Below, in pieces: positions 45,544 through 62,959 of a stretch of DNA of 64,000 nucleotides; position 1 is the stretch's first letter, and each line of letters starts with the position of its first letter. Origin of the DNA: Kaistia granuli DSM 23481. GTDB lineage: Bacteria > Pseudomonadota > Alphaproteobacteria > Rhizobiales > Kaistiaceae. The translations under genes were made by a program, and so were the position numbers. The stretch is from positions 1 through 64,000 of the forward strand of contig NZ_AQYH01000017.1 of assembly GCF_000380505.1 (NCBI RefSeq). The letters run 5' to 3'. The notes under the pieces were generated by a model. It searched no databases and was not told the origin of the DNA. It saw only the letters and a list, made by a program, of their open reading frames with translations.

Positions 45544-45554
45544 GATCGATCTCC

Positions 45555-47550: not shown

Positions 47551-47554
47551 GATT

Positions 47555-47585
47555 TCACATATGTGAGGATCAATCACTTATGTGA
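47555..47585. promoter_or_regulatory. Twin palindromic operator of the SorC-deoC operon
   Basis: TCACATATGTGA (47555-47566, perfect) and TCACTTATGTGA (47574-47585, one mismatch) are spaced 19 bp apart, nearly two helical turns, just upstream of the regulator ATG. This arrangement fits cooperative binding of a SorC-type tetramer. Confidence 0.75.
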
Positions 47586-47638
47586 AGACGTAGGCCGGCG
47601 GCCCGCCAATGTCAATGCGGTCGCCGCCGGCCGTCCTC

Positions 47639-48706: not shown

Positions 48707-48796
48707 GCAGCGCCTGCTGAGGATGGGTACGTCACGTCCGGCCCCGGTGGATGAGCGGGGGCCGTGCAGGGGCCCGAAGGCCCCTGCGTTCGAGGC

Positions 48797-49792
48797 TCAG
48801 GCGCGGGCGGCTGCGCCCTCGACGATCGTGCGGAAGTAGAGGTCGAGGAAGCGCTCGGTGTCGACGGCAGTGCAGATCGTGTGATCGGGTAGGCCATCCC
48901 ACGGCGTCGGCGGGAAGCTGCGCGTCGTCGGCTTCTGGATCGTCTGGCCGATCGCGATGCCTTCGGTCACCACCTTGATCGGGCCGGTGCGGGTCTCGAA
49001 CAGGCTCGGATCGAGCAGATAGGCGACGGCGGAGGAATCGTGCACGAAGATGCCGTCGATCCCGGTCGCCTTGCGGTAGAAGTCCTCGTAGAAGCGCGAG
49101 ATGTCCCAGAAGAACTGGCCGGCCTTGCCCGCCTTTTCGCGCAACTCCTGCATGTAGGCCGTCGTCATCACGCATTCCTGGGTGACGTCGAGGCCGACGA
49201 CGACGATCGGCCACTGGGCGGCGAACATCTCGTCGGCGGCGTGCGGGTCGCCGATGATGTTGGCCTCGGCGACCGGCGTCACATTGCCGGAATGGCCGGA
49301 ATAGCCGAAGGCCCCGCCCATGATGACGACCTGCTTGACCAGGGCCGCGATGCCGGGGTCCTCGCGCAGCGCCAGCGCCAGATTGGTCATGCGGCCGACG
49401 GCGACGAGGGTGATTTCGCCCGGATGCTTGCGGACCATCTCGATGATGAAGCGGTGCGCCGGCAGTTCGTGCTCGGCGGCGGTGATCGTGTCGGGGATGG
49501 GTACGTCGCCGAGGCCGTTATGGCCGTGGACGTAGTGCGGTTCCTCGGTCAGCGGCAGGACGAGCGGCTTGGCAGCGCCGCGGGCGACCGGGGCCTCAAT
49601 CTCGAAAAGCTCTTTCAGATACAGCGCATTGCGGGTGGTCGTGTCGATCGAGGCATTGCCGAGCACGGTGGTGATGCCGACCAGGTCGACCGACGGCGCA
49701 TATTCGAGAAACAGCAGCGCCATGGCGTCGTCGATGCCGGGATCGGTGTCGTAGATGACCTTCATGGGGGCGGGGGCGGCTGGGCTGGGCAT
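48797..49792 (-). CDS. Inosine/uridine-preferring nucleoside hydrolase
   Basis: A 331-residue enzyme cleaving the N-glycosidic bond of nucleosides, giving base and ribose. The calcium site is DTDPGIDDAM (15-24), with the C-terminal Asp in FVHDSSAV; VVIMGGAFGYSGH and NVTPVAEANIIGDPHAA are family motifs. CAGGA lies upstream of the ATG at 49792; an internal ATG at 49765 is possible. It is divergent from the DeoR-type chimeric regulator at 50031, which may control it. It complements the deoC operon in nucleoside use. Confidence 0.9.
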   Translation of the reverse strand: MPSPAAPAPMKVIYDTDPGIDDAMALLFLEYAPSVDLVGITTVLGNASIDTTTRNALYLKELFEIEAPVARGAAKPLVLPLTEEPHYVHGHNGLGDVPIPDTITAAEHELPAHRFIIEMVRKHPGEITLVAVGRMTNLALALREDPGIAALVKQVVIMGGAFGYSGHSGNVTPVAEANIIGDPHAADEMFAAQWPIVVVGLDVTQECVMTTAYMQELREKAGKAGQFFWDISRFYEDFYRKATGIDGIFVHDSSAVAYLLDPSLFETRTGPIKVVTEGIAIGQTIQKPTTRSFPPTPWDGLPDHTICTAVDTERFLDLYFRTIVEGAAARA

Positions 49793-49940
49793 TCTAGGGT
49801 CCTGATGATTCCGGTCTGAACTTCGTCTGGCGGCAGGATCGACCATATCGCCATGGCCGAACAGGGGCGACGACGGTTCCTGGCGCGAATTCGTCCATAT
49901 CCTCCGGCGTTTCTCATGTCCGCCATCGTCCATTCGAACG

Positions 49941-49954
49941 ATATGATCAAGTCG
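49941..49954 (+). repeat. 14-bp direct repeat, copy 1 (regulator promoter region)
   Basis: ATATGATCAAGTCG occurs here and again at 50038-50051. The surrounding sequence has further GATCAA half-sites (TGATC-AAGTC-GATCA). The spacing of 97 bp suggests a pair of operator sites for looping. Apart from this, the 238-bp divergent gap 49793-50030 shows no gene. Confidence 0.55.
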
Positions 49955-50030
49955 ATCAATGCTGCCGGAACGGAATTGGCAGCTTGAATGGTCAATCCGG
50001 TTGTCGATAATGGCGGGAACCTCAGGAAAA

Positions 50031-51797
50031 ATGATCAATATGATCAAGTCGCAGCGTGAAAACCGGATCCTCGAGATCCTTGCCCAGGCGGGCGAGGAGG
50101 TCTCCGTGCTGGAAATCGCGCAGCGCATCGGCCGCGTCTCCGGCGTGACGATACGTCGGGACATCGTCCGGCTGGCGGAGGAGGGGCGGCTCGAGCGCAC
50201 GCATGGCGGCGCGCTGCTGCCGGCGGCCTCCGCGGCAGCCGAGACACCGCTGCCGCGTGAAAACGCGCTGCAGGACGAGGTCGAGGGGGTCGACGCGATC
50301 GTGCTGCCGCCGATCGGCGGGCGCGGCGCCGATACGCTGCGCATGCTGGCGAAGCGCCGGCGCATCCCGTTCCTGGCCGAATCCTCGCCGCAGGAAGGCG
50401 GCGTCTATCTCGGTCCCGACAATTTCACTGCCGGCCGTGAGCTCGGCCGGGCGGCGGGCAAGATGCTCTCCGGCGCGATGGCCGAGGCGCGCGTGCTGCT
50501 GGTCTCGCTCGAGACGCTGCCGAACACGCGGGCCCGCTGCGACGGCTTCGTCAAGGGGTTCGGCGAGACGTTCCGCGGCACGGTCCGGCCCTGGCGCGTC
50601 GACGGTCAGGGCAGCTTCCGCATCGCGCTCAGGGCCAGCCTCGACGCCTTCGCCGCCTATCCCGACATCAACGTCATCTTCGGCGTCAACGATCATTCCG
50701 TGCTGGCGGCGATCGAGGCTTCCGACCGGGCCGGGGTCGCCGATGTCAGCGCGTTTTCGGTCGGCGGCGAGGGCGGCGCGCTGTTCGATGCGCTGGCCGC
50801 CCGCGGCAAGCTGAAGGCGACCGCTGCGCTGTTTCCGGAGATCGTTGGCATCCGCGCCGTCGAGACGCTGGCGGGCGCGCTGCATGGCAGCGCGATGCCG
50901 GACGAGATCCGCACGCCGCATGTCGTCGTCACGCCGGAGTCGCTCGACCGCTATTATCGCAAGGCCGGCAATGGCTGGGTGCTGGCGCCGGAAGCCGAGG
51001 CGTCGATCCTCGGCGCCACCGAGCGGCCGGCCTTCGTCCGCTCCGTCGGGCCGCGCCGCGCCATCGGCTTCGTGCCGCATTATCCGGCGCATGACTGGTA
51101 TCGCAACATGGCGCGCGCCATGCGGGAGCGGGCCGAGGCGCTCGGCTTCGAGCTGAAGGTCGCGGCGCCGCAATCCGGCATCGCCCGCGAGATCGCCGCC
51201 ATCCGCCGGCTGATCGCCAGGAGCGCCGCCCGCCTGGTGCGGCCGGGCGACACCATCCTGATCAACAGCGGCGTGCTGTCGACGCTGCTCGCCGACGAAC
51301 TGATGAGCCGCGACGGGATCACCGTCGTCACCAACGCCGTCGACGTGATGGAGCGGCTGTCCGGCCGGCCGGGCCTGAAGCTGATCATGACCAGCGGCGA
51401 ATACCAGGCTCGAGATCGCTGCCTGGTCGGGCCGAGCCTCGGCGCGCTGTTCGAGACGATGCGGGTCGACCGCGCCTTTCTCTCGGTCGACGGCATCTCG
51501 CCACATTTCGGCCCGTCGGCCACGGACGAGCGGCTGGCGCTCGCCGCCAAGCGCTTCGTCGACGCCTCGCGCGAGGTGGTGGTGATGGCCGACCATTCGC
51601 TGGTCGGCGTCGAGGCCAGCCACCGCATCGCCGGCCTCGGCGCCGTCGACGATCTGATCACGGATTCCGCCTCGCTGCCAGCGGATCGGCTCGCATTCGC
51701 CTCGCTCGGCATGCGCATCACGCTCGCCGACGAAGAGCCCGAGGAGATGGCGGCGCCCCGGTCCGATCGGCCGGCCGGGGACAGGAAGACGGCCTAG
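50031..51797 (+). CDS. Chimeric DeoR regulator with an inserted periplasmic-binding-protein-like domain
   Basis: A 588-residue regulator, about 2.3 times the DeoR length. Residues 6-60 are a DeoR HTH (RENRILEILAQAG; SGVTIRRDIVRLAEEGRLERTHGGALL). Residues about 82-330 look like a LacI/RbsB-type sugar-binding domain that begins at its second strand (GVDAIVLPP; FTAGRELGRAAGKML; NVIFGVNDHSVLAAIEA). Residues 343-378 (AIGFVPHYPAHDWYRNMARA onward) look like the missing first strand and helix. Residues about 385-565 are the DeoR C-terminal sensor (LVRPGDTILINSG; MTSGEY; SVDGISPHFG; VVMADHSLVG). It could sense both a free sugar and a phosphorylated intermediate (inference). It is divergent from the nucleoside hydrolase and heads the sugar-CoA gene cluster. 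Confidence 0.85.
   Translation: MINMIKSQRENRILEILAQAGEEVSVLEIAQRIGRVSGVTIRRDIVRLAEEGRLERTHGGALLPAASAAAETPLPRENALQDEVEGVDAIVLPPIGGRGADTLRMLAKRRRIPFLAESSPQEGGVYLGPDNFTAGRELGRAAGKMLSGAMAEARVLLVSLETLPNTRARCDGFVKGFGETFRGTVRPWRVDGQGSFRIALRASLDAFAAYPDINVIFGVNDHSVLAAIEASDRAGVADVSAFSVGGEGGALFDALAARGKLKATAALFPEIVGIRAVETLAGALHGSAMPDEIRTPHVVVTPESLDRYYRKAGNGWVLAPEAEASILGATERPAFVRSVGPRRAIGFVPHYPAHDWYRNMARAMRERAEALGFELKVAAPQSGIAREIAAIRRLIARSAARLVRPGDTILINSGVLSTLLADELMSRDGITVVTNAVDVMERLSGRPGLKLIMTSGEYQARDRCLVGPSLGALFETMRVDRAFLSVDGISPHFGPSATDERLALAAKRFVDASREVVVMADHSLVGVEASHRIAGLGAVDDLITDSASLPADRLAFASLGMRITLADEEPEEMAAPRSDRPAGDRKTA
50038..50051 (+). repeat. 14-bp direct repeat, copy 2 (spanning the regulator start codon region)
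   Basis: An identical copy of 49941-49954. It covers codons 3-7 of the DeoR-type regulator and an alternative ATG at 50040. A site here could mediate autorepression. Confidence 0.55.
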
Positions 51798-51848
51798 CCA
51801 GCCGGACGGACTGCATAAGCAATTTTGAAAAGTGACTGGGAGGATACC

Positions 51849-53066
51849 ATGAAGAAACTGCTTCTCGCCGCGACGATGCTCGCGGGACTGACGCCTGCGG
51901 CCTCTGCGCAGGAGACGATCACGCTGAAGTTCTGGGACAACCAGCAGACCGAATCCGGTCTGAGCCAGTACCAGCAGGAGGCGGTCAAGCGCTTCGAGGC
52001 CGAGAATCCCGGCATCAAGATCGAAGTCACGACCATCCCCTATCCGGAGTTCCAGCAGCGCCTGTTGACGGCCGTGCAGGGCGGCAACGCGCCTGATGTC
52101 TCGACCGTCGACCAGATCTGGCAGGCCGCCTTCGCCGAGGCCGGCGCGATCGCCGAGCTCGATGCGCAGGCCAAGGCCGCCGGCGTCTCGCCCGACGCCT
52201 TCTTCAAGGGCGCCTGGGATTCGGCCAACTACAACGGCAAGCTCTACGGCATCCCGTTCAATGTCGACGTCTGGCAGTTCTCCTTCCTGAACAACGCGCT
52301 GTTCAAGGAAGCCGGCATCGACCCCGCCTCGATCACCACCTGGGAAGGCCTGAAGGCCGCCGCCGAGAAGCTGACCGACCCTGCCAAGGGCAAGTATGGC
52401 GTCGGCCTGTTCGGCCATAAGGGCGAAGACACCGTCGTCGTCATGGACAGCTTCATCTTCTCGAATGGCGGCAAGGTGCTGGACGAAAACGGCAAGTGCG
52501 CGCTGACCGGCAAGGAATCGGTCGAGGCGCTCGAATATCTGCAGTCGCTGGTGCCGTTCGCGCCGAAGGGCATCCTGAACGCCTCGTCGGGCGACATGCG
52601 CGAACTGTTCCTGAACGGCTCGCTCGGCGTCGAGTTCTGGCCGGCGCTGGAGCAGCCGACCCTGCAGAAGTCGAAGATCGATTGGGACTTCGAGAACGGC
52701 ACCGCGCCGGCGGGCAAGACCCCGGTCGGCGCCTATGGCGGCTGGAACCTCGTCGTCTACAAGTCGTCGCCGCATCAGGAAGCCGCCTGGAAGTTCATCC
52801 AGTTCCTGACCAAGGAAGACGTCAACGGCGCGGTCGTCGATCTCGTCCCGGCCAACGTGAAGGCGGCCAAGACCTTCCTCGAGGCGAACCGCAAGGGCGC
52901 CGACAAGATCATGACGCATCTCGGCAACGCCCAGCCGCGTCCGCTCTCGGCCCGCTACCTCGAAGTCTCCGACATCCAGGTGACGCTGGCGCAGGACGTC
53001 TATTCCGGCGCCAACCCGGCCGAGGCCGCTGCCAAGGCCTGCGCCGCCATTGACGGCCTGAACTGA
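51849..53066 (+). CDS. CUT1 ABC transporter sugar-binding protein (plus-strand cluster)
   Basis: A 405-residue MalE-type periplasmic binding protein. The signal peptide MKKLLLAATMLAGLTPAASA is cleaved before QET. Family segments include ITLKFWDNQQ, VKRFEAENPGIKIEV, DVSTVDQIWQAAFAEAGAIAEL and GIPFNVDVWQF. GGGAGG is upstream of the ATG. First gene of a transporter-catabolism run after the chimeric regulator. The ligand is unknown; the following genes suggest a monosaccharide, polyol or sugar acid. Confidence 0.9.
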   Translation: MKKLLLAATMLAGLTPAASAQETITLKFWDNQQTESGLSQYQQEAVKRFEAENPGIKIEVTTIPYPEFQQRLLTAVQGGNAPDVSTVDQIWQAAFAEAGAIAELDAQAKAAGVSPDAFFKGAWDSANYNGKLYGIPFNVDVWQFSFLNNALFKEAGIDPASITTWEGLKAAAEKLTDPAKGKYGVGLFGHKGEDTVVVMDSFIFSNGGKVLDENGKCALTGKESVEALEYLQSLVPFAPKGILNASSGDMRELFLNGSLGVEFWPALEQPTLQKSKIDWDFENGTAPAGKTPVGAYGGWNLVVYKSSPHQEAAWKFIQFLTKEDVNGAVVDLVPANVKAAKTFLEANRKGADKIMTHLGNAQPRPLSARYLEVSDIQVTLAQDVYSGANPAEAAAKACAAIDGLN

Positions 53067-53109
53067 GGCAATGCCTTGCCGGGCGGACATCGCGTCCGTC
53101 CGGTTCTCC

Positions 53110-53200
53110 GCTTCGTCATCCCCGCGAAAGCGGGGATTCATCAAGGCCAGAGACAACTCAGGCTGCATGGATCCCGGGTAAAGCCCGGGATGACGCCATA
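53110..53200. repeat. REP-like palindromic element between binding-protein and permease genes
   Basis: Two hairpins, ATCCCCGC-GAAA-GCGGGGAT (53118-53137) and ATCCCGGG-TAAAG-CCCGGGAT (53171-53191), lie between outer CGTCAT and ATGACG, so the whole unit is also an inverted repeat. Such CGTCATCCC...GGGATGACG elements are common dispersed intergenic repeats in alphaproteobacteria. It fills most of the 173-bp gap. Confidence 0.8.
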
Positions 53201-53239
53201 CCGGCGCCCGCCACGCCCATACCGAAAAGAACCAAATTC

Positions 53240-54121
53240 ATGTTGAAACGCGATCGCTGGCTCACCTGGATCTTCGTGACGCCGGCCGTCCTGCTGGTCG
53301 CGGTGCTGATGTACTATCCGATGATCGGAACGGTCATCGAGAGCCTCTACTCGACCTCCTTCATCAATCCGACGCCGAAATTCGTCGGCCTCGCCGTCTA
53401 CCAGAAGATCTTCGGCAGCGCCGATTTCGCCCAGATCGTCTGGAATTCCTGCGTCTGGACGCTGGCCGTCGTGGTGCTGCAGAACGGCTTCGGCTTTCTC
53501 TGCGCGCTGCTCCTGAACCAGAAGCTGCCCGGTCAGGGGCTGATGCGGTCGCTGATCCTCTTGCCCTGGGTGCTGCCCGGCGTTGTCGCCGCCATCCTGT
53601 GGCGTTTCATGTACGACCCGCAGCTCGGCCTCATCAATTCCTTCCTGATCTCAGCCGGCTTCGGCGATCAGGGCCTCGCCTGGCTCGCCGATAGCTCGAC
53701 CGCCATGGCGGCCGTCGTCGTCGCCGCCGTCTGGAAGGGCTTTCCGTTCTCGACCGTCGTCTTCCTCGCCGCCCTGCAGAATGTCGAGGCCGAGCAGATG
53801 GAGGCGGCGAAGATGGACGGCGCCGGCTCGCTCCGTCGCCTGTGGCACATCGTGCTGCCGTCGATGAAGGAAGTGATCGCCATCAACTTCGTGCTGACCA
53901 CCATCCTGACCTTCAATTATTTCGACATGATCTGGGTGCTGACGCGCGGCGGGCCCCAGAACTCCACGCATATCTTCCCGACCAAGATCTACGAGCTCGG
54001 CTTCGGCCAGTTCCGCTTCGGCGAGGCGGCCGGCTACGGCGTCGTTTCGATCGTCGTGCTGGCGCTGCTGATCACGCTCTATTTCCTGGTCCAGCGTACC
54101 GGCCGAAAGGCTCAAGCATGA
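53240..54121 (+). CDS. CUT1 ABC transporter permease (MalF-like, plus-strand cluster)
   Basis: A 293-residue inner-membrane permease with six helices. The EAA loop reads EQMEAAKMDGAGSLRRLWHIVLPSMK. The N-terminus (WLTWIFVTPAVLLVAVLMYYPM) and NNFDMIWVLTRGGP-like NYFDMIWVLTRGGPQNST are MalF hallmarks. Its stop overlaps the next start (ATGA). Confidence 0.92.
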   Translation: MLKRDRWLTWIFVTPAVLLVAVLMYYPMIGTVIESLYSTSFINPTPKFVGLAVYQKIFGSADFAQIVWNSCVWTLAVVVLQNGFGFLCALLLNQKLPGQGLMRSLILLPWVLPGVVAAILWRFMYDPQLGLINSFLISAGFGDQGLAWLADSSTAMAAVVVAAVWKGFPFSTVVFLAALQNVEAEQMEAAKMDGAGSLRRLWHIVLPSMKEVIAINFVLTTILTFNYFDMIWVLTRGGPQNSTHIFPTKIYELGFGQFRFGEAAGYGVVSIVVLALLITLYFLVQRTGRKAQA

Positions 54122-54945
54122 CCCCGTCCAAATCCTCTCGCTTCCTCCTGATGGCACTGCAGCTCGGCCTCTGCGTCATCATCCTGCTGCCCTTCTTCTG
54201 GATGGTGTCGGTGTCGCTGAAGCCGGCCGCCGAGCCCTTCGCCATTCCGGCCCGGCTCTGGCCGGAGAACCCGACCTTCGAGAACTACCTGACGGCGTTC
54301 CGCCCGGAATTCCGCACCTATTTCCTGAACTCGGTCGTCGTCTCGCTCTCGACCGTCGTGATCACCGTGACGCTGGCGCTGTTCGCCGCCTATTCGTTCA
54401 CGCGGACGCAGATGCGGCTGCTGTCGCTCCTGATGGTGCTCGTCATCGTGGCGCAGATGTTCCCGGCCAGCGCCATCATCATCCCGATCTACAAGATGAT
54501 GAAGGCGGCCGACCTCCTGAACACCTACACCTCGCTGATCCTTGCCTATGTGACGGTGACGCTGCCGGTGGCGATCTGGATGCTGCGCGGCTTCCTGGCG
54601 CGGTTGCCGGTGGCGTTGGAGGAGGCGGCCGCGATCGACGGCGCTGGTCCGTTCAAGATCTTTTTCCTGATCATCCTGCCGCTCTGCAAGCCAGGCATCG
54701 TCGCCACCGCCGTCTTCGTTCTGATCGTCACCTGGCAGGAGTTCCTGTTCGCGCTCTCCTTCACCTCGACCAAGGAGATGCGGACCCTTCCCGTTGGCAT
54801 GAACGACTTCATCGGCCAGTACGGCATCCGCTACGGCGAGCTGATGGCGAGTTCGGTGCTGATCTCGGTTCCCGTCATCGCCGTCTTCTTCCTCCTGCAA
54901 CGCCAGTTCGTGGCCGGCCTCACCGCCGGCGCCGTGAAAGGCTGA
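54118..54945 (+). CDS. CUT1 ABC transporter permease (MalG-like, plus-strand cluster)
   Basis: A 275-residue permease with six helices. The EAA loop is LEEAAAIDGAGPFKIFFLIILPLCKP and the C-terminus QRQFVAGLTAGAVKG is the MalG-type end. It overlaps the upstream permease by four bases, and the enoyl-CoA hydratase-like gene starts 4 bp later, so transport and catabolism are in one operon. No ATPase gene follows; a shared MsmK/UgpC-type ATPase from elsewhere is expected. Confidence 0.92.
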   Translation: MTPSKSSRFLLMALQLGLCVIILLPFFWMVSVSLKPAAEPFAIPARLWPENPTFENYLTAFRPEFRTYFLNSVVVSLSTVVITVTLALFAAYSFTRTQMRLLSLLMVLVIVAQMFPASAIIIPIYKMMKAADLLNTYTSLILAYVTVTLPVAIWMLRGFLARLPVALEEAAAIDGAGPFKIFFLIILPLCKPGIVATAVFVLIVTWQEFLFALSFTSTKEMRTLPVGMNDFIGQYGIRYGELMASSVLISVPVIAVFFLLQRQFVAGLTAGAVKG

Positions 54946-54948
54946 TCG

Positions 54949-55734
54949 ATGTCCGAACCGCTCGTTCTCCGCGACGACCTCGAACCCGGCATTGTCCGGC
55001 TCACCTTCAACCGGCCCGACAAGCTGAACGCGCTGTCGACGCCATTGATGCAGGAATTCGAGGCGCATCTGGACGCCATCGCCGCCGATCCGGCCGTGCG
55101 GGTGGTCATCCTCGCAGGCGCCGGCGAGAAGGCCTTCGTCGCCGGCGCCGACATCGCCGAATATCGCGGCAACCGGCGGGCCGAGTTCATCGCCTACCAG
55201 CTCGAGAGCCGACGCGTGTTCGACAAGCTCGAAGCGCTTGCCAAGCCGACGATCGCGGCGATCCGCGGCTATGCGCTCGGCGGCGGCTTCGAGATCGCGC
55301 TCTGCTGCGACGTGATCGTCTGCGCGACCAGCGCGCGCCTCGGCCTGCCCGAGGGCCTGCTTGGCCTGTCGCCGGGCGGCGGCGGCACGCAGCGCCTGAC
55401 CCGCGCCGTCGGCCGAATCGTCGCCTCCGACATGATGCTCGCCGCGCGCCGCATCACCGGCGAGCGCGCCCACCAGCTCGGCCTCGCCGTCGAATGCGTC
55501 GCCGACGACGCACTGATGGAAATGGCGGAAAGCCGCGCCCGCGCCATGCTGAAGGTAGCGCCGCTGGCGCAGGCCGAGATGAAGCGGCTGATCCGCCAGG
55601 GCCCCGACGCGGCGCTGCCGGTGGCGCAGGGCTTCGAGCAGGAAGTGCTGTTCCGCCTCTACGGCACGGCGGACGGCCAGGAGGGCATCGACGCCTTCCT
55701 CGACAAACGTGATCCGGTCTTCAAGGGAATATGA
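54949..55734 (+). CDS. Enoyl-CoA hydratase/isomerase-family protein (crotonase fold)
   Basis: A 261-residue crotonase. The oxyanion-hole regions are FVAGADIAEY (about 63-72) and ALGGGFEIALCCDV, and both classic catalytic Glu positions are filled: E in GGGFE (near 110) and E in LPEGLLGL (near 130). It should hydrate or dehydrate a CoA thioester. Its position, 4 bp after a sugar permease and 4-bp overlapping an SDR, is unusual, since crotonases normally sit with fatty-acid or aromatic genes. A role in dehydrating a sugar-derived acyl-CoA is inferred. Classification as hydratase rather than isomerase rests on the two Glu residues. Confidence 0.85.
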   Translation: MSEPLVLRDDLEPGIVRLTFNRPDKLNALSTPLMQEFEAHLDAIAADPAVRVVILAGAGEKAFVAGADIAEYRGNRRAEFIAYQLESRRVFDKLEALAKPTIAAIRGYALGGGFEIALCCDVIVCATSARLGLPEGLLGLSPGGGGTQRLTRAVGRIVASDMMLAARRITGERAHQLGLAVECVADDALMEMAESRARAMLKVAPLAQAEMKRLIRQGPDAALPVAQGFEQEVLFRLYGTADGQEGIDAFLDKRDPVFKGI

Positions 55735-56513
55735 CGATGCGTGGAACCGAACTTTTGGGACGGGTGGCCGTCGTCACCGGCGGCGCCATGGGCATCGGCC
55801 GCGCTTCCGCCGAGGCGCTGGCGCGGGAAAGCGCCGCCGTGGTGGTGGCCGACATCGACGAGGAGGCGGGCGCCGCGACGGCGGCGGGCCTCCGGGCCTC
55901 CGGCGCGGAGGCGATCTTCGTGCGCACCGACGTCGCGGTGATGGCCGACATGCAGGCGATGGCGGCCAGGGCGGTCGAGGCCTTCGGCGGCATCGACATC
56001 CTCGTCAACAATGCGGCCCGCGCCATCGGCGGCGTCGTCGACGAGATCGACGAGGAGAGCTGGAATACCGTCATCACCACCAATCTCTCCAGTGTCTGGC
56101 GTGGCATGCGCGTTTGCGTTCCCGAGATGCGCAAGCGCGGCAAGGGCGCCGTCGTCAACATGTCGTCGGTGCAGTCGCTCGCCGGCTTCAAGGGCTGGGC
56201 TGCCTATGCCGCGGCGAAGGGCGGCATCAACGCGCTGACGCAGCAGGCTGCGATCGACCTCGCGCCGCACGGCATCCGCGTCAACGCGGTGGCGCCCGGC
56301 ACGATCATGACGCCCTTGAACGAGAAGATTTTCGCCACCCATCCCGATCCGCAGGGGCTGATCGCCAGCTGGAACAATGCCCATCCGCTCGGCCGCTTTG
56401 GAGAAGCACCGGAAGTTGGCGAAGCGGTCTTGTTCCTGGCCAGCGATCGGGCTTCCTTCATCACGGGAGAAATCCTGCGCGTCGATGGCGGCCTCGTCGT
56501 CCGGGGCGAATGA
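55731..56513 (+). CDS. Short-chain dehydrogenase/reductase of the sugar-CoA cluster
   Basis: A 260-residue classical SDR. TGGAMGIG (about 15-22) binds the cofactor, VADIDEEAG with an acidic residue after strand 2 points to NAD(H), and NNAA, NMSSVQS and YAAAK give the active site. RVNAVAPGTIMTP and FITGEILRVDGG are usual C-terminal features. It starts in ATGA overlap with the crotonase gene. It probably oxidises the imported sugar or a hydroxyl of a CoA intermediate. ATG at 55737 is an alternative. Confidence 0.88.
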   Translation: MTMRGTELLGRVAVVTGGAMGIGRASAEALARESAAVVVADIDEEAGAATAAGLRASGAEAIFVRTDVAVMADMQAMAARAVEAFGGIDILVNNAARAIGGVVDEIDEESWNTVITTNLSSVWRGMRVCVPEMRKRGKGAVVNMSSVQSLAGFKGWAAYAAAKGGINALTQQAAIDLAPHGIRVNAVAPGTIMTPLNEKIFATHPDPQGLIASWNNAHPLGRFGEAPEVGEAVLFLASDRASFITGEILRVDGGLVVRGE

Positions 56514-56544
56514 CGCGCGGCAATCATCACGGGAAGGAAGCGGA

Positions 56545-57660
56545 ATGAGCGACAGCGATTTTCATACGATCGAGGCCAAGGGCGTCAAGGCGACCCTCGA
56601 CCTCCGGGGCGGCCATGTCCGCGTCTTCGCGACGGAGCAGGGCGGCCGCACGATCGAGCCCCTGCACTCGGCCCCTTGGTTGAACGACAAGACGATCGTC
56701 GACGATGAGACGATCGATGCCAATCTGCGCTTACTCTCCGGCGACTTCTTCTGCGCGCCGTTCTCGACCAATGACATCGACCCGGTGACGCTGCATGGCT
56801 GGCCGGCCAATTCGCCCTGGACGCTGTTGGGCGTCGAGGCGCATCCAGAAGGCGGCCAGACGGCGCGCTACGAGCTGGTCAAGCGCGTGCAGGGTGCGAC
56901 GCTCGTCAAGGAGCTGACCGTCCGCGACGGCCATCCCTTCCTCTATGAGCGCCACATCTTCTCCGGTGGCGAGGGTGATCTGCCGGTCGCCAATCACGCC
57001 ATGACCCGCTTCGACGGCGGCGGCCGGCTCTCCTTCTCGCCGAAGCTGTTTGGCACGACGCCGGAAACCGCGATCGAATCCGATCCGGCCAAGGGCCGCT
57101 CGCTGCTCGCCTATCCCGCCCGTTTCACCGATCTGACCAAGGCGCCGCGCGCCGATGGCGGCACCGCCGATCTCACCACCTATCCGTTCGGCTCGAAGCA
57201 CGAGGACTTCCTGTCGCTGGTCGAGGATCCGGCCAATCCATTCGGCTGGGCGGCCGCTGTCCGACCGGACAAGCGCGACATCTTCCTGACGCTGAAGAAC
57301 CCGGCCGATTTCCCCATCACCATGATGTGGTTCTCGAATGGCGGCCGCGACTATACGCCGTGGAACGGCCGCCATATCGGCGTGCTCGGCCTCGAGGAAG
57401 GCCGCACCTATGCCGGCTACGGCCACAAGGCGTCGATCGCCCCGAACCCGTGGTCGGAGCAGGGCATTCCGACCTCGCTCCACCTCGATCCGTCCGGTGA
57501 TGTCGAGGTCCGCAATGTCATCGGCGGCGTCGCGCTGCCCGAGGGCTGGACCCGCGTTGCCTCCGTCGAGGCGGGGGCTGGGGAACTCGTTCTCGTCGAC
57601 GAGGCCGGCGGCAGCGTCACGGTTCCCTATGACGCGAAATTCCTGACGCGGGGCGCATGA
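56545..57660 (+). CDS. Galactose-mutarotase-fold protein (aldose 1-epimerase-like)
   Basis: A 371-residue beta-sandwich protein with the strand pattern of galactose-mutarotase-like enzymes: LRLLSGDFFCAPFS, DPVTLHGWPANSPW (His), YERHIFSGGEGDLPVANHAM (His) and ITMMWFSNGGRDYTPWNGRHIGVLGLE. The conserved His positions and a late Glu are present, but the subgroup is poorly characterised. It may interconvert sugar anomers so that the dehydrogenase and lactonase can act. GGAAGG precedes the ATG at 56545. Its stop overlaps the SMP-30 gene. Confidence 0.7.
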   Translation: MSDSDFHTIEAKGVKATLDLRGGHVRVFATEQGGRTIEPLHSAPWLNDKTIVDDETIDANLRLLSGDFFCAPFSTNDIDPVTLHGWPANSPWTLLGVEAHPEGGQTARYELVKRVQGATLVKELTVRDGHPFLYERHIFSGGEGDLPVANHAMTRFDGGGRLSFSPKLFGTTPETAIESDPAKGRSLLAYPARFTDLTKAPRADGGTADLTTYPFGSKHEDFLSLVEDPANPFGWAAAVRPDKRDIFLTLKNPADFPITMMWFSNGGRDYTPWNGRHIGVLGLEEGRTYAGYGHKASIAPNPWSEQGIPTSLHLDPSGDVEVRNVIGGVALPEGWTRVASVEAGAGELVLVDEAGGSVTVPYDAKFLTRGA

Positions 57661-58571
57661 TGACTGGCGCGGCGATGCATCACGGCTTCACCACCGGCGG
57701 ACCGACGGTCCTGCCGGCGGAGCGGGCGACCGTCCTGTTCGACGGTATCTTCTCGTCGCCGCGCCTGCAGCATCCCGAAGGTGTCGCGGTCGGTCCGGAC
57801 GGCTGGGTCTGGGCCGGCAGCGAGAACGGTCAGATTCTGCGCATCGCGCCGGACGGGTCCGAGATCGAGGAGGTCGCCTCGACGGGTGGCTTCCTGCTCG
57901 GGCTCGCCTTTGACGGCGACCGGGCGCTCTTTGCCTGCGATTCCCGCTATCACGCGGTGTTTCGCCTCGATCTCGCCGACCGGTCGCTGGCGCGCTTCAC
58001 CGCGCCCGGCATCCAGGTGCCGAACTACGCCGTCGTCGATCGCGCGCGCGGCCGGCTCTATGTCTCCGATACGCGGGCGCCGACCGATCCCGGCCCGTCG
58101 ATCTGGTCGTATGATCTTGCAAGCGGCGCCGGCGCCGTCTGGCATGGCGGGCCATTCGACCATGCCAACGGCATGGCGCTTTCTCCGGAGGGTGACGCGC
58201 TGTTCCTGTGCGAAACCTTTGCACGGCGCGTCACGCGGATCGCGATCGAGGCGGATGGTTCGGCCGGCGCGGCGACGACATGGTGCGGCGATCTGCCGGG
58301 CCTTCCGGACGGGCTCGCCTTCGACGACAAGGGCGCGCTGTTCGTGAGCTGCTACGAGCCGTCGCGCGTGCTCCGGATTCCGGCCGGCGGCGGCGCTGCG
58401 GAAATCTATATCGAGGACGCAACCGCGCATGTCCTCGCCCATCCGACCAACATCGCCTTCGACGGCGCCACGCTCTACACGGCCAATCTCGGCCGCTGGC
58501 ACGTCACGAAGATCGAGACCGACACCACCGGAACGCCGCTCTGGCGGCAGACCCGGGGCGAATCCGACTAA
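57657..58571 (+). CDS. SMP-30/gluconolactonase-family lactonase
   Basis: A 304-residue six-bladed beta-propeller. LQHPEGVAVGPDGWVWAGSENG gives the metal Glu (PEG), PNYAVVDRARGRLYVSDT the Asn, and HANGMALSPEGDALFLCET and DGLAFDDKGALFVSCYEPSR the later blade ligands (N and D). Family enzymes hydrolyse sugar lactones to aldonic acids. Start overlaps the mutarotase-like stop (ATGATG). No signal peptide, so a cytosolic enzyme. It fits after the SDR in a non-phosphorylating sugar oxidation route. Confidence 0.85.
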   Translation: MMTGAAMHHGFTTGGPTVLPAERATVLFDGIFSSPRLQHPEGVAVGPDGWVWAGSENGQILRIAPDGSEIEEVASTGGFLLGLAFDGDRALFACDSRYHAVFRLDLADRSLARFTAPGIQVPNYAVVDRARGRLYVSDTRAPTDPGPSIWSYDLASGAGAVWHGGPFDHANGMALSPEGDALFLCETFARRVTRIAIEADGSAGAATTWCGDLPGLPDGLAFDDKGALFVSCYEPSRVLRIPAGGGAAEIYIEDATAHVLAHPTNIAFDGATLYTANLGRWHVTKIETDTTGTPLWRQTRGESD

Positions 58572-58628
58572 CCAACCAAGGCCAGCCGCCGACGCGGCCG
58601 GCCAAACGACGAGTGTGAGGAACCGACC

Positions 58629-59834
58629 ATGACCGCCGCCAAGGCCCTCCAGGACGTCACCGTCCTGGATCTGAGCCATCTCCTGCAGGGCCCCTTCGCC
58701 ACCCAGCTGCTCGCCGACATGGGTGCGAATGTCATCAAGGTCGAGCGGCCGGGGCAGGGCGACCTGTTCCGCACGCTGACCTTCAACAACCGCTGGGTCG
58801 GCGGCACCGAGAGCCCGAATTTCCTCGCCTGGAACCGCAACAAGCGTTCGCTGGCGCTCGATCTGAAGGCGCCCGAGGCGAAGGAGATCCTCTACAAGAT
58901 CGCCGAGACGGCCGATGTCGTGGTGCAGAATTTCCGCCCCGGCGTGCTGGAGCGGCTCGGCTTCGGCTATGCCGATTTCGCCAAAATTAATCCGCGCATC
59001 ATCTATTGCTCCGGGTCCGGCTATGGCGACAGCGGCCCGTACCTGTCCCGCCCCGGCCAGGACATGCTGATCCAGGGCCTGACCGGCATCGCCGCCGCCA
59101 CCGGCCGTGGCGACGGCCCGCCGGTGCCGGTCGGCTCGGGCTTCTCCGACCAGGTCGGCGCCATGAACATGGTCTATGGCATCCTGTCGGCGCTCTACTG
59201 GCGCGAGCGCTCTGGCGAGGGCCAGGAGATCAAGGTCGACCTGCTCTCGGCCATGCTCGCGCATCAGGGCCAGGAAATGCTGATGGCGATGAACTTCCAG
59301 CAGGATTTCGTGCGGCCGAATTCCGGCATCGGCCATCCCGGCATGGACGCGCCCTTTGGTGTCTATCCGACCTCGGACGGCTGGGTGACGGTGGCGATGA
59401 GCCCGTTCAAGCGCTTCGTCGGTGTGCTCGGCGACGACAGCCTGCTCGTCTACGACAATCCGAAGGACCTGTTCGACAAGCGCGACGAGATCTGGGAGAA
59501 GCTCGCGGCGCTCACCAAGGGCTGGACGACGGCCGACCTGATGCAGGCTTTGCTCGCCGTCGACATCTGGTGCGGCGAGGTGAAGACGCATCTGCAAGCC
59601 GAGCAGGACCCGCAGGTAAAGCATATCGGCGCGATCACCAGCTACGAGCACCCGACCGCCGGCACCGTCAAGGTGGTGGCGCCGGCCGTGAAGATGTCGA
59701 AGACGCCGTCCGAGATCGAGCGCCCGGCGCCGCGCATCGGCGAACATTCGCGCGAGATCCTGAAGGAATTCGGTTTTGACGCGGCAACGGTGGATGGTTT
59801 CATCGCCAAGGGCTCCGTCGCCGAAGTGAAATAG
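58629..59834 (+). CDS. CaiB/BaiF-type (class III) CoA-transferase
   Basis: A 401-residue formyl-CoA-transferase-like enzyme that moves CoA between carboxylic acids. The N-terminus VLDLSHLLQGPFATQLLADMGANVIKVERPG is the family start. The catalytic Asp is D174 (GSGFSDQVGAMN), and GFGYADFAKINPRIIYCSGSGYG is the conserved core. It lies 57 bp after the lactonase gene and ends the plus-strand run at a terminator. It would activate an acid produced by the upstream oxidation steps and feed the crotonase (inference). The donor and acceptor cannot be read from sequence. Confidence 0.9.
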   Translation: MTAAKALQDVTVLDLSHLLQGPFATQLLADMGANVIKVERPGQGDLFRTLTFNNRWVGGTESPNFLAWNRNKRSLALDLKAPEAKEILYKIAETADVVVQNFRPGVLERLGFGYADFAKINPRIIYCSGSGYGDSGPYLSRPGQDMLIQGLTGIAAATGRGDGPPVPVGSGFSDQVGAMNMVYGILSALYWRERSGEGQEIKVDLLSAMLAHQGQEMLMAMNFQQDFVRPNSGIGHPGMDAPFGVYPTSDGWVTVAMSPFKRFVGVLGDDSLLVYDNPKDLFDKRDEIWEKLAALTKGWTTADLMQALLAVDIWCGEVKTHLQAEQDPQVKHIGAITSYEHPTAGTVKVVAPAVKMSKTPSEIERPAPRIGEHSREILKEFGFDAATVDGFIAKGSVAEVK

Positions 59835-59856
59835 GCCGGCCACCCGTCCAAACAGG

Positions 59857-59889
59857 AAAGCCCCGCGGCCGGCTGGCCGCGGGGCTTTT
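59857..59889. terminator. Terminator between the two converging sugar loci
   Basis: AAAGCCCCGCGGCC (59857-59870) and GGCCGCGGGGCTTT (59875-59888) form a 14-bp stem with T/A runs on the two sides. It can stop both converging operons. Confidence 0.88.
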
Positions 59890-59916
59890 GGTTGTCCAGG
59901 CCGCCGGGAGGCGGCG

Positions 59917-60729
59917 CTACTTCAGCGCGCCGGCGGTCAGGCCACTGACGATCTTGCGCTGCAAGAGCATGAACACGATGACGATCGGCGTCACATAGAT
60001 CACGGCATAGGTCATGATGCCGTTCCAGTCGGTGGTGTTCGGGCCCATGAAGTTCATCAGGCCGACAGTCGCCGTCTGCAGGTCCTCCTGCGAGATCATC
60101 GTGCGCGAATAGACATATTCGCCGAACGACTGCAGGAAGATCAGCACCGAGGTGACGAGGATGCCGTTGCGCGCCAGCGGCACGATGATGCGGAGGAAGG
60201 CGGTCAGGCGCGACGCGCCGTCGACCCGCGCCGCTTCCTCGAGCTCCTTCGGGATCTGCAGGAACGAGGTCCGGCAAAGCACGATGTAGAGCGGCAGCAC
60301 CTTGGCCGTCTGGGCCAGGATGACGGCGAAGCGCGGCGTCGCGATCAGGCCGATCTGGTTGAACAGCACGAAGATCGGCGTCGCCATCAGCGACGGCGGC
60401 AGCACCTGCATCATCAGGATCAGGAACAGCACGACATCCATCCAGACGCCGCGCACGCGGGCCAGCGCATAGGCGCAGCCCGTGCCGATCAGCGCGGCGA
60501 TCACCGTGGTGCCCGCCGCCACCACCAGCGAGTTCCACAGATAGACGTCCATCTTCTTGTCGACGAACACCTGGATGAAGTTGAACTGCGGATCGGTCGG
60601 CCAGAAGGTCGGTGGGTAGGTGAAGGTCTCCGACGACGGCTTGAAGGCGGTCAGATACATCCAGTAGAGCGGGAACAGGTAGATCGCCAGGAAGCCGAGC
60701 GCGATGGCGAAGAGAACGTAGCGTTTCAT
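59917..60729 (-). CDS. CUT1 ABC transporter permease (MalG-like, minus-strand operon)
   Basis: A 270-residue six-helix permease. The EAA loop is KELEEAARVDGASRLTAFLRIIVPLAR and the C-terminus LQRKIVSGLTAGALK is MalG-type. The start at 60729 (MKRYVLFAIALGF) has GGAGAA upstream and lies 10 bp after the MalF-like gene. Last gene of the binding protein-permease-permease set on this strand. Confidence 0.92.
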   Translation of the reverse strand: MKRYVLFAIALGFLAIYLFPLYWMYLTAFKPSSETFTYPPTFWPTDPQFNFIQVFVDKKMDVYLWNSLVVAAGTTVIAALIGTGCAYALARVRGVWMDVVLFLILMMQVLPPSLMATPIFVLFNQIGLIATPRFAVILAQTAKVLPLYIVLCRTSFLQIPKELEEAARVDGASRLTAFLRIIVPLARNGILVTSVLIFLQSFGEYVYSRTMISQEDLQTATVGLMNFMGPNTTDWNGIMTYAVIYVTPIVIVFMLLQRKIVSGLTAGALK

Positions 60730-60739
60730 GGGGTTCTCC

Positions 60740-61642
60740 TCAGGCCCGGTATTCTTGACGCGTCGAGCGCACATAGAGGAAGGCGACGACGATGACGAAG
60801 CCGAGCATCAGCACCGAGACGGCGCTGCCGGTGGCGATGTCGTAGTTCTGGAACGAGAGCTGCCAGGACCAGTATTGCGCGACATTCGACGAATTGGCCG
60901 GACCGCCCTGGGTCAGCGAGGCGAACAGGTCGAACTGCTGCAGCGTGAAGATAATGCCGAGGCAGACGACGGCGCCGATGGTCGAGCGCATCATCGGCAG
61001 CGTCATGTGCCAGAAGCGGCCCCACGGGCCGGCGCCATCAAGGGCCGCCGCCTCGTACATGTCCTTCGGAATGCCGGCGAGGCCGACCGAAAGCAGAATC
61101 ATGTTGAACGGGATGCCGAGCCAGACATTGGCGATGATGACGGAATAGAGCGAGATCGCCGGCGTCGACAGCCAGAAGATCTTGTCGTCGATCAGGCCGG
61201 AGGAGATCAGCAGGTAGTTGAGCACGCCGAAGTCACCGGCAAACACCCACTTCCAGATCGCGCCGGCGACCAGCGCCGGGATGATCCAGGCCGCCAGGAA
61301 CAGGCCGCGCAGATAGCTCGCGCCGAAGAAGTCCTGCTGGAAGAACAGCGCCAGCCCGAAGCCGATGGCGAGCTGGAAGACGATGCACAGGATCACGAAG
61401 ATCGCCGTATTGGCCATGATCGACCAGAATTCCGGCGCCGCGAACAGGGTGCGGTAGTTGGCCAGCCCGACAAAGGGCCGGATCAGGTCGCCGAGCGAGA
61501 ACATGTCCACTTCCTGGAAGGACATGGCGATGTTGTAGATCAGCGGAAACGCCGAGAAGACGAAGAGATAGGCCAGAGCGAGGCTGGCCAGCGCGGCGTC
61601 GAAGCCGCGTCCGTCGCGGAGGCTGCGCAGAAGCGCCGACAT
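60740..61642 (-). CDS. CUT1 ABC transporter permease (MalF-like, minus-strand operon)
   Basis: A 300-residue permease with six helices (N-terminal LASLALAYLFVFSAFPLIYNIAMSF). The EAA loop is KDMYEAAALDGAGPWGRFWHMTLPMMR and QQFDLFASLTQGGPANSS is MalF-like. GGAGA precedes the ATG. A REP-like palindrome lies between it and the binding-protein gene. Confidence 0.92.
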   Translation of the reverse strand: MSALLRSLRDGRGFDAALASLALAYLFVFSAFPLIYNIAMSFQEVDMFSLGDLIRPFVGLANYRTLFAAPEFWSIMANTAIFVILCIVFQLAIGFGLALFFQQDFFGASYLRGLFLAAWIIPALVAGAIWKWVFAGDFGVLNYLLISSGLIDDKIFWLSTPAISLYSVIIANVWLGIPFNMILLSVGLAGIPKDMYEAAALDGAGPWGRFWHMTLPMMRSTIGAVVCLGIIFTLQQFDLFASLTQGGPANSSNVAQYWSWQLSFQNYDIATGSAVSVLMLGFVIVVAFLYVRSTRQEYRA

Positions 61643-61686
61643 GGGCGGTCTCCTTAGTGGGCTTTGGGGTTCGCCGCTGAAAATCA

Positions 61687-61720
61687 GCCGTCATCCCGGG
61701 CCGGAGCCGGGGATGACGGC
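61687..61720. repeat. REP-like palindrome between binding-protein and permease genes
   Basis: GCCGTCATCCC (61687-61697) and GGGATGACGGC (61710-61720) form an 11-bp stem with a GC-rich loop (the centre is itself imperfectly palindromic). It is the same CGTCATCCC/GGGATGACG type as the element at 53110-53200. Confidence 0.8.
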
Positions 61721-61738
61721 ATTGGCTGGCGCGAACGC

Positions 61739-62959
61739 CTACTTCTTGACGATGCCGTCGATCGTCGACTGCGCGGTGGTCAGCGCGGTCTTGGCGTCTG
61801 CCTGGTGCGTCAGCGCCTGCTGGATGGCGGTCGAGATCGCCTTGGAGATCTTGGCCCAATCCGGCGACGGACCGCGGGCGCGGGCATACTTCATCGATTC
61901 CGCGAACACGGCGTACTGCGCCGGCCACTTCGGATCCTTGGCCTCGACCGGATAGGAGGGCACGAAGCCGAACTCGTTCCAGACGCGCGGCATCTGCGAG
62001 TACATGTATTCGAGATACATGAACGCCTCTTTCGGATGCTGCGACTTGGCGAAGATCACATTGTTGCCTTCGCCGAGCGCCGAGGCGCGGGTATCGCCCT
62101 GCTTCTCGATCGGCAGCAGTGCGACGCGGTAGTCGAACTTGGCGTCCTTCGACATGCGGGGCAGCTCCCACGGGCCGGAAATGCCCATGGCGGCGTTCTG
62201 CGCGTTGAAGGTGGCCATCGAATCGTACTGGCCGCGGATCAGCGTGTCGGGCGAAGCGAGCTTCTCGTCGATGATCTTCTGCCAGACTTCCAGCGCGCGC
62301 ACGGCGCCGTCATCGGCGATGTGGTCGAAATCGGCGCCGGTCGACTGCGCCCAGGGCAGGAACTGGAAGGTGCCTTCCTCGTTCGAATTGGCCGAGAAGG
62401 CCAGGCCGTAGACGTTCTTCGCCGGGTCGGTCAGCTTCTTCGCCGTCTCGTAGAGCTCCTGCCAGGTCTGCGGCGGCTTGTCCGGATCCAGGCCGGCGGC
62501 CTTGAACATGTCGGCGTTGTAGTAGAGCGCGATGGTGTTGGAACCGCGCGGCAGGCCGTAGATCTTGCCGTCCCAGGTGACGGTCGAGAGCGGGCCCGGG
62601 AAGATCTTCGAGGTATCGACGATCTCTGATTCGGCAATGTAGGGCGTCAGGTCGAGCAGCGCGCCCTTGGCCGACAGGAACGGCGTGTTGGGATTGTCGA
62701 CATAGGCGACGTCGGGAGTCGTGCCGGTGGCGACGGCGCGCATCACGTCATTGGCCCAGTCGGCGAACTCGACGCGCTTGATGTTGATCTTGATGTCGGG
62801 GTGGAGCTTCATGAACTCGTCCGCCATCACGTAGTTGTAGCCGGGGTCGGCCTGGCGATCGATGGTCCAGACATTGAGCTCGACCGGCTCCGCCGATGCG
62901 GCGGCCGTCAGCGCCAGAACGCCCGCGGCGCCCAGCCAGTATTTCGCAAAATTCGCCAT
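61739..62959 (-). CDS. CUT1 ABC transporter sugar-binding protein (minus-strand operon)
   Basis: A 406-residue MalE/UgpB-type binding protein. The signal peptide is FAKYWLGAAGVLALTAAASA, cleaved before EPVELNVWT. Family segments include ADEFMKLHPDIKINIKRVEFADW, DVAYVDNPNTPFLSAKGALLDL and YGLPRGSNTIALYYNADMFKAAGLDPDKPPQTWQEL. GGAGGAAAAC precedes the ATG. First of the three transport genes; the TIM-barrel isomerase gene lies 116 bp upstream on the same strand. Ligand unknown. Confidence 0.9.
   Translation of the reverse strand: MANFAKYWLGAAGVLALTAAASAEPVELNVWTIDRQADPGYNYVMADEFMKLHPDIKINIKRVEFADWANDVMRAVATGTTPDVAYVDNPNTPFLSAKGALLDLTPYIAESEIVDTSKIFPGPLSTVTWDGKIYGLPRGSNTIALYYNADMFKAAGLDPDKPPQTWQELYETAKKLTDPAKNVYGLAFSANSNEEGTFQFLPWAQSTGADFDHIADDGAVRALEVWQKIIDEKLASPDTLIRGQYDSMATFNAQNAAMGISGPWELPRMSKDAKFDYRVALLPIEKQGDTRASALGEGNNVIFAKSQHPKEAFMYLEYMYSQMPRVWNEFGFVPSYPVEAKDPKWPAQYAVFAESMKYARARGPSPDWAKISKAISTAIQQALTHQADAKTALTTAQSTIDGIVKK

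Follow-up and report, generated by a model that had tools for sequence, protein, structure and literature searches.

How would a bacterium break down a sugar with an operon that joins a sugar importer to coenzyme A (CoA) thioester chemistry? The question is raised by a 64,000-nucleotide stretch of the Kaistia granuli DSM 23481 genome (contig NZ_AQYH01000017.1, positions 1 to 64,000; hereafter the window), which holds a unit of nine intact genes, all on the plus strand, at 49959-59834. A first-pass annotation of the window had described a packed plus-strand run of these gene families, and the description held, except that it had overlooked a regulator gene at 49959-51797. We propose, with a probability of roughly 0.48, that these genes form an operon for the catabolism of a single sugar, probably an aldose, along a non-phosphorylating route; in it, CoA thioester chemistry, with dehydration in a CoA cycle, would take the place of the usual aldonate dehydratase. 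That the genes form some kind of sugar-acid CoA catabolic unit is likely. Many bacteria have retained the set, which points to a mode of sugar use not yet described; the unit is described nowhere in the literature searched, a coverage that leaves out most subscription papers and so does not show absence from print.

We infer every reaction of the scheme that follows, as well as the reaction order, the sugar, the use of NAD and the recycling of CoA. A CUT1 transporter, driven by an ATPase encoded elsewhere, would import the sugar; a mutarotase-fold protein (56545-57660, proposed aldose 1-epimerase) would exchange its anomers; a short-chain dehydrogenase/reductase (SDR, 55731-56513; adh_short_C2, 1.5e-64; proposed sugar 1-dehydrogenase) would oxidize C1 to the lactone in an NAD-linked step; and an SMP-30/gluconolactonase-family protein (57657-58571; SGL, 5.8e-19; proposed aldonolactonase) would open the lactone to the aldonate. 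A class III CoA-transferase (CoAT, 58629-59834; CoA_transf_3, PF02515, 1.4e-105; proposed aldonate CoA-transferase) would then transfer CoA onto the aldonate, and a crotonase of the enoyl-CoA hydratase family (ECH, 54949-55734; ECH_1, 1.2e-59; proposed aldonyl-CoA dehydratase) would remove the 3-hydroxyl of aldonyl-CoA by syn elimination, the enol product becoming 2-keto-3-deoxy-acyl-CoA, which is the CoA ester of the product of aldonate dehydratases. The same CoAT would exchange CoA onto the next aldonate, such that CoA cycles as in the CaiB/CaiD dehydration of carnitine, and the free 2-keto-3-deoxy acid would be phosphorylated, aldol-cleaved or both by enzymes encoded elsewhere.

Non-phosphorylating routes of the Weimberg, Dahms and Entner-Doudoroff type lead through an importer, a sugar dehydrogenase and a lactonase to the aldonate, which is dehydrated in its free form by an IlvD/EDD or enolase-superfamily enzyme. 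With its SDR and SGL families, the unit has what may be the front end of such a classical route, whereas a CoAT and a crotonase stand in place of the aldonate dehydratase; neither an IlvD/EDD nor an enolase-superfamily dehydratase is among its nine genes.

Conservation of the gene set and its two architectures

Do these genes belong together? The first-pass annotation held that sugar import, oxidation, lactone opening and CoA chemistry form one system, and it named as its check whether ECH and CoAT are conserved with the transporter. We retrieved 83 loci by their CoAT (from 121 relatives in contigs of named genomes, of which 80 were retained, and from 3 plasmid records); many are from Mesorhizobium and therefore not independent, and several named loci duplicate other genomes searched. 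Genes in the relatives were called by simple open reading frame scoring, and presence was scored over the whole stretch retrieved per locus by our own identity thresholds. Loci were classed as CUT1 type by a permease 1 with >55% identity and as CUT2 type by an SDR with >55% identity, so the counts of CUT1 permease 1, of the CUT2 SDR and of the CoAT query are full by definition. On this basis, the 83 loci split into 44 of CUT1 type, 33 of CUT2 type and 6 others. All 44 CUT1 loci have the permeases and the SDR; the binding protein is present in 43, ECH in 42, the regulator in 41, the lactonase in 40, an ATPase in 38, a mutarotase-like gene in 37 and SBP2, an extra protein of the relatives, in 34. 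The 33 CUT2 loci, with importer parts that resemble ribose and arabinose systems (the binding protein at L049:1766-2800 is an example), hold the SDR in 33 cases, the lactonase in 29, a family I CoA-transferase in 28, ECH and SBP2 in 27 each and a mutarotase-like gene in 24.

As a control on the query bias of the CoAT retrieval, a search that started from ECH yielded 7 of 297 genomes at E <= 1e-100, and in all seven, the window included, importer proteins, the SDR and the CoAT lie beside ECH. ECH and CoAT are thus conserved with the transporter, and the importer/SDR/lactonase/ECH/CoAT set is not a chance neighborhood, an explanation that we rejected on this 7/7 result and on the conservation across the 44 CUT1 loci. 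It is also very unlikely that ECH and CoAT belong to the usual metabolism of fatty or aromatic acyl-CoA and adjoin a sugar importer by accident: both enzyme families act on many such substrates, but the same set turns up in many families and with two importer types that are not related.

In a tree of 114 CoATs, built by a quick method that places long rows such as that of L105 unsurely, the 36 CUT2 rows all fall together in a single group with support 99, and Vibrio sp. S9_S30 carries both types (L093 and L107). Among the 14 Kaistia genomes searched, 11 have a close CoAT, in one copy each, and the CoATs of K. adipata, K. terrae and K. defluvii are 98% identical to that of the window. Six of these 11 show the window arrangement (in G021 it was seen only on a short contig), four show the CUT2 arrangement, and the last, G023, combines the regulator, ECH, SDR, ATPase, SBP2 and CoAT with no binding protein or permeases. 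In that genome, which lacks the full unit, a mutarotase-like gene with 84% identity adjoins the second importer (L032, 8471-9580), and ECH, SDR, SBP2 and CoAT lie away from it, without binding protein or permeases (L032; L176). A further unit of alphaproteobacterial type is recorded as Exiguobacterium profundum (L103); its CoAT groups with Jannaschia and Histidinibacterium rows, and the name is probably wrong.

Proposed order of the reactions and rival routes

Which steps come before CoA activation? Two of the six other loci (L061 and L104) are on short contigs; the remaining four place ECH, CoAT and SBP2 beside acid-type transporters, namely MFS proteins in Phyllobacterium myrsinacearum DSM 5892 (L068, a small form of the unit) and in a Bradyrhizobium metagenome-assembled genome (L069), a TRAP system in Bosea (L073) and TctC in Variovorax (L105). 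Neither a sugar importer nor an SDR nor a lactonase was found in the retrieved stretches of these four loci. The ECHs of L068 and L069 are 66-71% identical to that of the window. Within the CUT1 group of the tree, the CoATs of L068 and L073 each fall in a well-supported set (96 in both cases) and that of L069 lies within the same 24-row set (98); the L105 CoAT sits on a long branch whose position is unsure, and a second CoAT of L073 falls outside the CUT1 group.

Both MFS proteins score highest with the D-galactonate transporter subfamily, at 334.5 bits (L068) and 312.4 bits (L069), under its cut-off of 395, and among solved structures the L068 protein is closest to 6e9n, a D-galactonate transporter. 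Such DgoT-like transporters point to an aldonate-type acid as the CoAT substrate. On the simplest reading, these strains import the acid that the full units make from sugar, which would put the SDR and the lactonase before, and CoAT and ECH after, a free sugar acid. We regard these loci as the best evidence for the proposed order of oxidation, lactone opening and then CoA chemistry; together with the CUT2 version, they support a sugar acid as the substrate, as the first-pass annotation had supposed.

The same loci bear on a route that resembles beta-oxidation, in which CoAT would make 2-deoxyaldonyl-CoA from a deoxy sugar acid, the SDR would oxidize the 3-hydroxyl, ECH would epimerize by dehydration and rehydration, and a thiolase encoded elsewhere would free acetyl-CoA. 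By family knowledge, classical ECH chemistry suits a 3-hydroxyacyl-CoA without a 2-hydroxyl better than it suits aldonyl-CoA, and there is a precedent for the intermediates: for Klebsiella michiganensis, Price et al. 2019 proposed deoxyribonyl-CoA and 3-ketodeoxyribonyl-CoA (PMC6365646, in its accessible text), so the first-pass statement that known sugar routes use no CoA esters was too strong. That deoxyribose and deoxyribonate oxidation also runs from sugar to lactone to acid. It differs in using a CoA synthetase, a beta-hydroxyacyl-CoA dehydrogenase and a thiolase, or else beta-keto acid cleavage, and the term 'enoyl-CoA hydratase' is absent from its main text. Neither a thiolase nor a CoA synthetase is among the nine genes of the unit (the search for them covered only the unit), the DgoT-resembling transporters suggest a hydroxylated aldonate, and the retrieved stretches of the four acid-type-transporter loci hold no SDR, which makes an SDR step after CoA activation unlikely. 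For this last reason, we did not adopt the SDR as a hydroxyacyl-CoA dehydrogenase, and we consider the route as a whole unlikely.

Distinctly unlikely, too, is that an unusual or branched sugar acid is activated as its CoA ester and that the ECH product, rather than being a 2-keto-3-deoxy acid, goes to an RraA-like aldolase or to the family I CoA-transferase. Here the evidence comes from the CUT2 loci, 6 of 33 of which have RraA-like proteins and 28 of 33 the family I CoA-transferase, and from one CUT1 locus (L065) with an RraA-like protein beside its CoAT. Both proteins lie outside the window unit, however; the family I enzyme was not seen in the CUT1 loci, and the acid-type-transporter loci have only ECH, CoAT and SBP2.

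What would become of the product of the proposed dehydration? The first-pass annotation found no kinase or aldolase in the unit, which is correct for the window but not for its relatives, four of which have a PfkB-family kinase next to CoAT and one an RraA-like protein. Ten same-strand genes downstream of CoAT were scanned, and they include three PfkB kinases (L083, L099 and L102) and the RraA-like protein of L065; L054 also has a PfkB kinase by its CoAT, and many of the remaining CUT1 loci have CoAT followed by a gene on the opposite strand. The best family of the L099 kinase is 2-dehydro-3-deoxygluconokinase (256.4 bits versus a cut-off of 400). These kinases fit a 2-keto-3-deoxy product and do not prove it. 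Elsewhere in the window genome, there are three KDPG-aldolase-family matches over the cut-off and one relative of the L099 kinase, at 34% identity.

Several observations weigh against dehydration of an aldonyl-CoA in a CoA cycle. Aldonyl thioesters with free 4- or 5-hydroxyls should lactonize easily, and the unit has no CoA ligase to explain how the CoA cycle is primed. The other six of the ten downstream genes encode an ArsR-type regulator, two zinc alcohol dehydrogenases (L066 and L067), a methyltransferase, a HAD phosphatase and a protein without a match, and the PfkB proteins of L054, L083 and L102 appear closer to ribokinase. The ECHs of L073 and L105 are just 37-49% identical to either ECH type, and the mutarotase-like gene also occurs in Kaistia genomes that lack this unit. 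ECH is absent from 2 of the 44 CUT1 loci (L074 and L077) and from 6 of the 33 CUT2 loci, so in those loci either its task can fall to a different enzyme or the pathway is not the same. Classical dehydration is also available: the window genome has six ILVD_EDD matches outside the unit, and among the CUT2 loci the mannonate dehydratase UxuA lies near 16 and an enolase-superfamily dehydratase near 6 (one representative of each was scanned). We considered whether the enolase-superfamily enzyme replaces a missing ECH, which L108 and L121 fit, whereas L110, L111, L126 and L138 hold both. The UxuA gene (L112:1099-2331 and relatives) sits upstream of SBP2 in its 16 CUT2 loci, and a relative occurs in one CUT1 locus, L064.

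Active sites of the enzymes and the SBP2 protein

Are the enzymes equipped for the proposed chemistry? E115 and E135 of ECH, glutamates at the catalytic positions, are invariant across 11 sequences and align with glutamates in 5zai, a 3-hydroxypropionyl-CoA dehydratase that is the best solved relative of ECH (1.2e-58); the protein therefore has both the family match and the two glutamates of a hydratase-type crotonase. We take E115 and E135 to be the counterparts of E144 and E164 of the rat enzyme. E144 is named in the accessible text of PMC9007349. The best solved relative of CoAT is a succinate--hydroxymethylglutarate CoA-transferase (3.1e-60), and D145 of CoAT, invariant across 11 sequences, lines up with an aspartate of 9br6. 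D145 would be the catalytic aspartate that carries CoA, class III CoA-transferases being described, in the part of PMC3720670 available, as working through an aspartyl-CoA intermediate.

The CaiB/CaiD system of enterobacteria offers a precedent for a CoA cycle, and the window unit shares with it the combination of a class III CoA-transferase and a crotonase. There, according to the accessible portion of PMC2131755, the two enzymes are paired, and CoA cycles between the two in carnitine dehydration, the transferase swapping CoA between product and substrate and a 3-hydroxyacyl-CoA being dehydrated. That system differs from ours in its substrate, carnitine, in its CaiC ligase, CaiA reductase and CaiT transporter, and, as far as the same source goes, in having no sugar importer, SDR or lactonase; the nine genes of the window unit include neither a ligase nor a CaiT-type transporter. 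Window ECH scores 142 bits with the crotonobetainyl-CoA hydratase model (cut-off 500) and CoAT 110.8 bits with the carnitine CoA-transferase model (cut-off 413), so they are not carnitine-type sequences.

The closest solved relatives of the SDR include glucose 1-dehydrogenases and are too diverse to settle what it oxidizes, and the SMP-30 protein matches mainly designed propellers, which is uninformative. The mutarotase-fold protein has the aldose 1-epimerase fold, and its H84, H151 and E284, invariant in 30 sequences, follow the same order as H96, H170 and E304 of GalM, residues for which mutants are on record, a likeness of order rather than of a residue-by-residue alignment.

Most relatives keep beside CoAT a further protein, SBP2, which cannot be seen from the window; in this respect the first-pass annotation was incomplete. 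SBP2 has a solute-binding-protein fold with conserved W-D-H-x-R and D-H-P residues and without a recognizable signal peptide (for example, L051:5196-6356); neither the window unit nor 10 of the 44 CUT1 loci have it, and no description of it was found in the literature searched. Signal peptides were assessed by eye and from hydrophobicity rather than by a trained predictor, in an even comparison of SBP2 with the importers' binding proteins on all 70 matches of >250 residues; an earlier SBP2 set, 67 copies chosen by a W-D/Q-H motif and assigned the nearest preceding start, had been uneven against those binding proteins. When we searched from SBP2, a class III CoAT stood beside it in 19 of 22 loci, 17 of those 19 having no ECH in the 4-kb stretch, and long stretches taken for 15 of the 36 distinct SBP2 matches (from two sets of 15 and 22 with one in common) held a class III CoAT in every case (15/15). 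In two other proteobacterial genomes (L163 and L165), SBP2 is followed by two different class III CoATs and an ECH.

These counts raise the idea that SBP2, not ECH, is the real partner of CoAT, as an enzyme derived from a sugar-binding protein, with ECH as a secondary step. Solute-binding proteins have turned dehydratase before: cyclohexadienyl dehydratase and other enzymes with this fold, as presented in the accessible text of PMC7683729, are a precedent for the change from binding protein to enzyme that the SBP2 of the relatives may match. We nevertheless hold this improbable, since SBP2 is lacking in the window unit and in nearly a quarter of CUT1 loci, and it may bind without catalyzing.

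Returning to the aldonyl-CoA scheme, it is possible, if doubtful, that the unit belongs to a widespread, undescribed class of pathways, in which a CoAT/crotonase cycle, rather than a dedicated aldonate dehydratase, removes water from sugar acids in the form of their CoA thioesters. In most loci, SBP2, as a cytoplasmic protein descended from a sugar-binding protein, would take part by binding, protecting or converting the acid or the CoA ester, and SBP2 and class III CoAT would form a general module for several substrates. If true, bacteria would have a second general solution to the difficult step in breaking down sugar acids, the removal of water next to a carboxylate, with thioester activation borrowed from the metabolism of fatty acids and carnitine. 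Functions could then be assigned to orphan clusters in Mesorhizobium, Sinorhizobium, Shinella, Kaistia, Roseobacter-type bacteria and Vibrio, pathway engineering would gain a route free of iron-sulfur dehydratases, and a solute-binding-protein fold would be employed within the cell next to CoA-transferases. Because the clusters are small, the idea is open to direct testing.

Regulator, importer and surroundings of the unit

How is the sugar sensed and brought in? The regulator (49959-51797, plus strand) has an unusual domain order, a DeoR helix-turn-helix (Pfam HTH_DeoR, 33-87) followed by an inserted periplasmic sugar-binding domain (Peripla_BP_4, 109-310) and the DeoR C-terminal sensor domain (DeoRC, 416-570). 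It is kept in 41 of the 44 CUT1 loci, is ~30% identical to the CUT2-type binding protein and probably provides sugar-responsive control of the unit.

The CUT1 importer named by the first-pass annotation is present in part, with a sugar-binding protein of 405 amino acids (51849-53066; SBP_bac_1, 1.1e-46) and two permeases (53240-54121; BPD_transp_1, 1.7e-20; and 54118-54945; BPD_transp_1, 2.6e-15), which overlap at ATGA. No MalK-type ATPase lies within 49959-59834, so a complete importer in the window was rejected; the only match in the window to the relatives' ATPase, at 27617, is 44% identical, and a census of the ABC ATPases of the genome (150 of 303 candidates scored) does not single out a partner. 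The best solved relative of the binding protein is 5ci5, and its other listed PDB structures are mostly sugar-binding proteins that do not fix the sugar. A class-wide search with this protein matched only the window's own genome among 385 drawn genomes (1/385) and is therefore no independent test.

Between the binding protein and permease 1, a 173-base spacer (53067-53239) folds far better than its shuffled versions (minimum free energy -78.8 kcal/mol, z -4.85, 200 shuffles); one palindromic part of 26 bases occurs once in the window, and the spacer is possibly an mRNA-stability or repeat element. Downstream of CoAT, the sequence read by eye has a probable intrinsic terminator on the plus strand (59860-59889), an 11-bp G+C-rich stem followed by TTTT, which probably closes the unit; it is not among the sites of a consensus scan, and 59850-59900 forms this hairpin (-34.4 kcal/mol, z -3.84).

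The minus-strand genes at 59917-62959 encode a second importer, a binding protein and permease pair, that converges on the unit. These genes are 27-33% identical to those of the unit's importer, and within the window a relative of the ATPase was not found next to them. On the other side, the minus strand at 43150-50365 carries aldehyde dehydrogenase-like, DeoC-like aldolase, SorC-type regulator and nucleoside hydrolase-like genes, as judged by eye from their translations, and is perhaps a deoxynucleoside catabolic locus.

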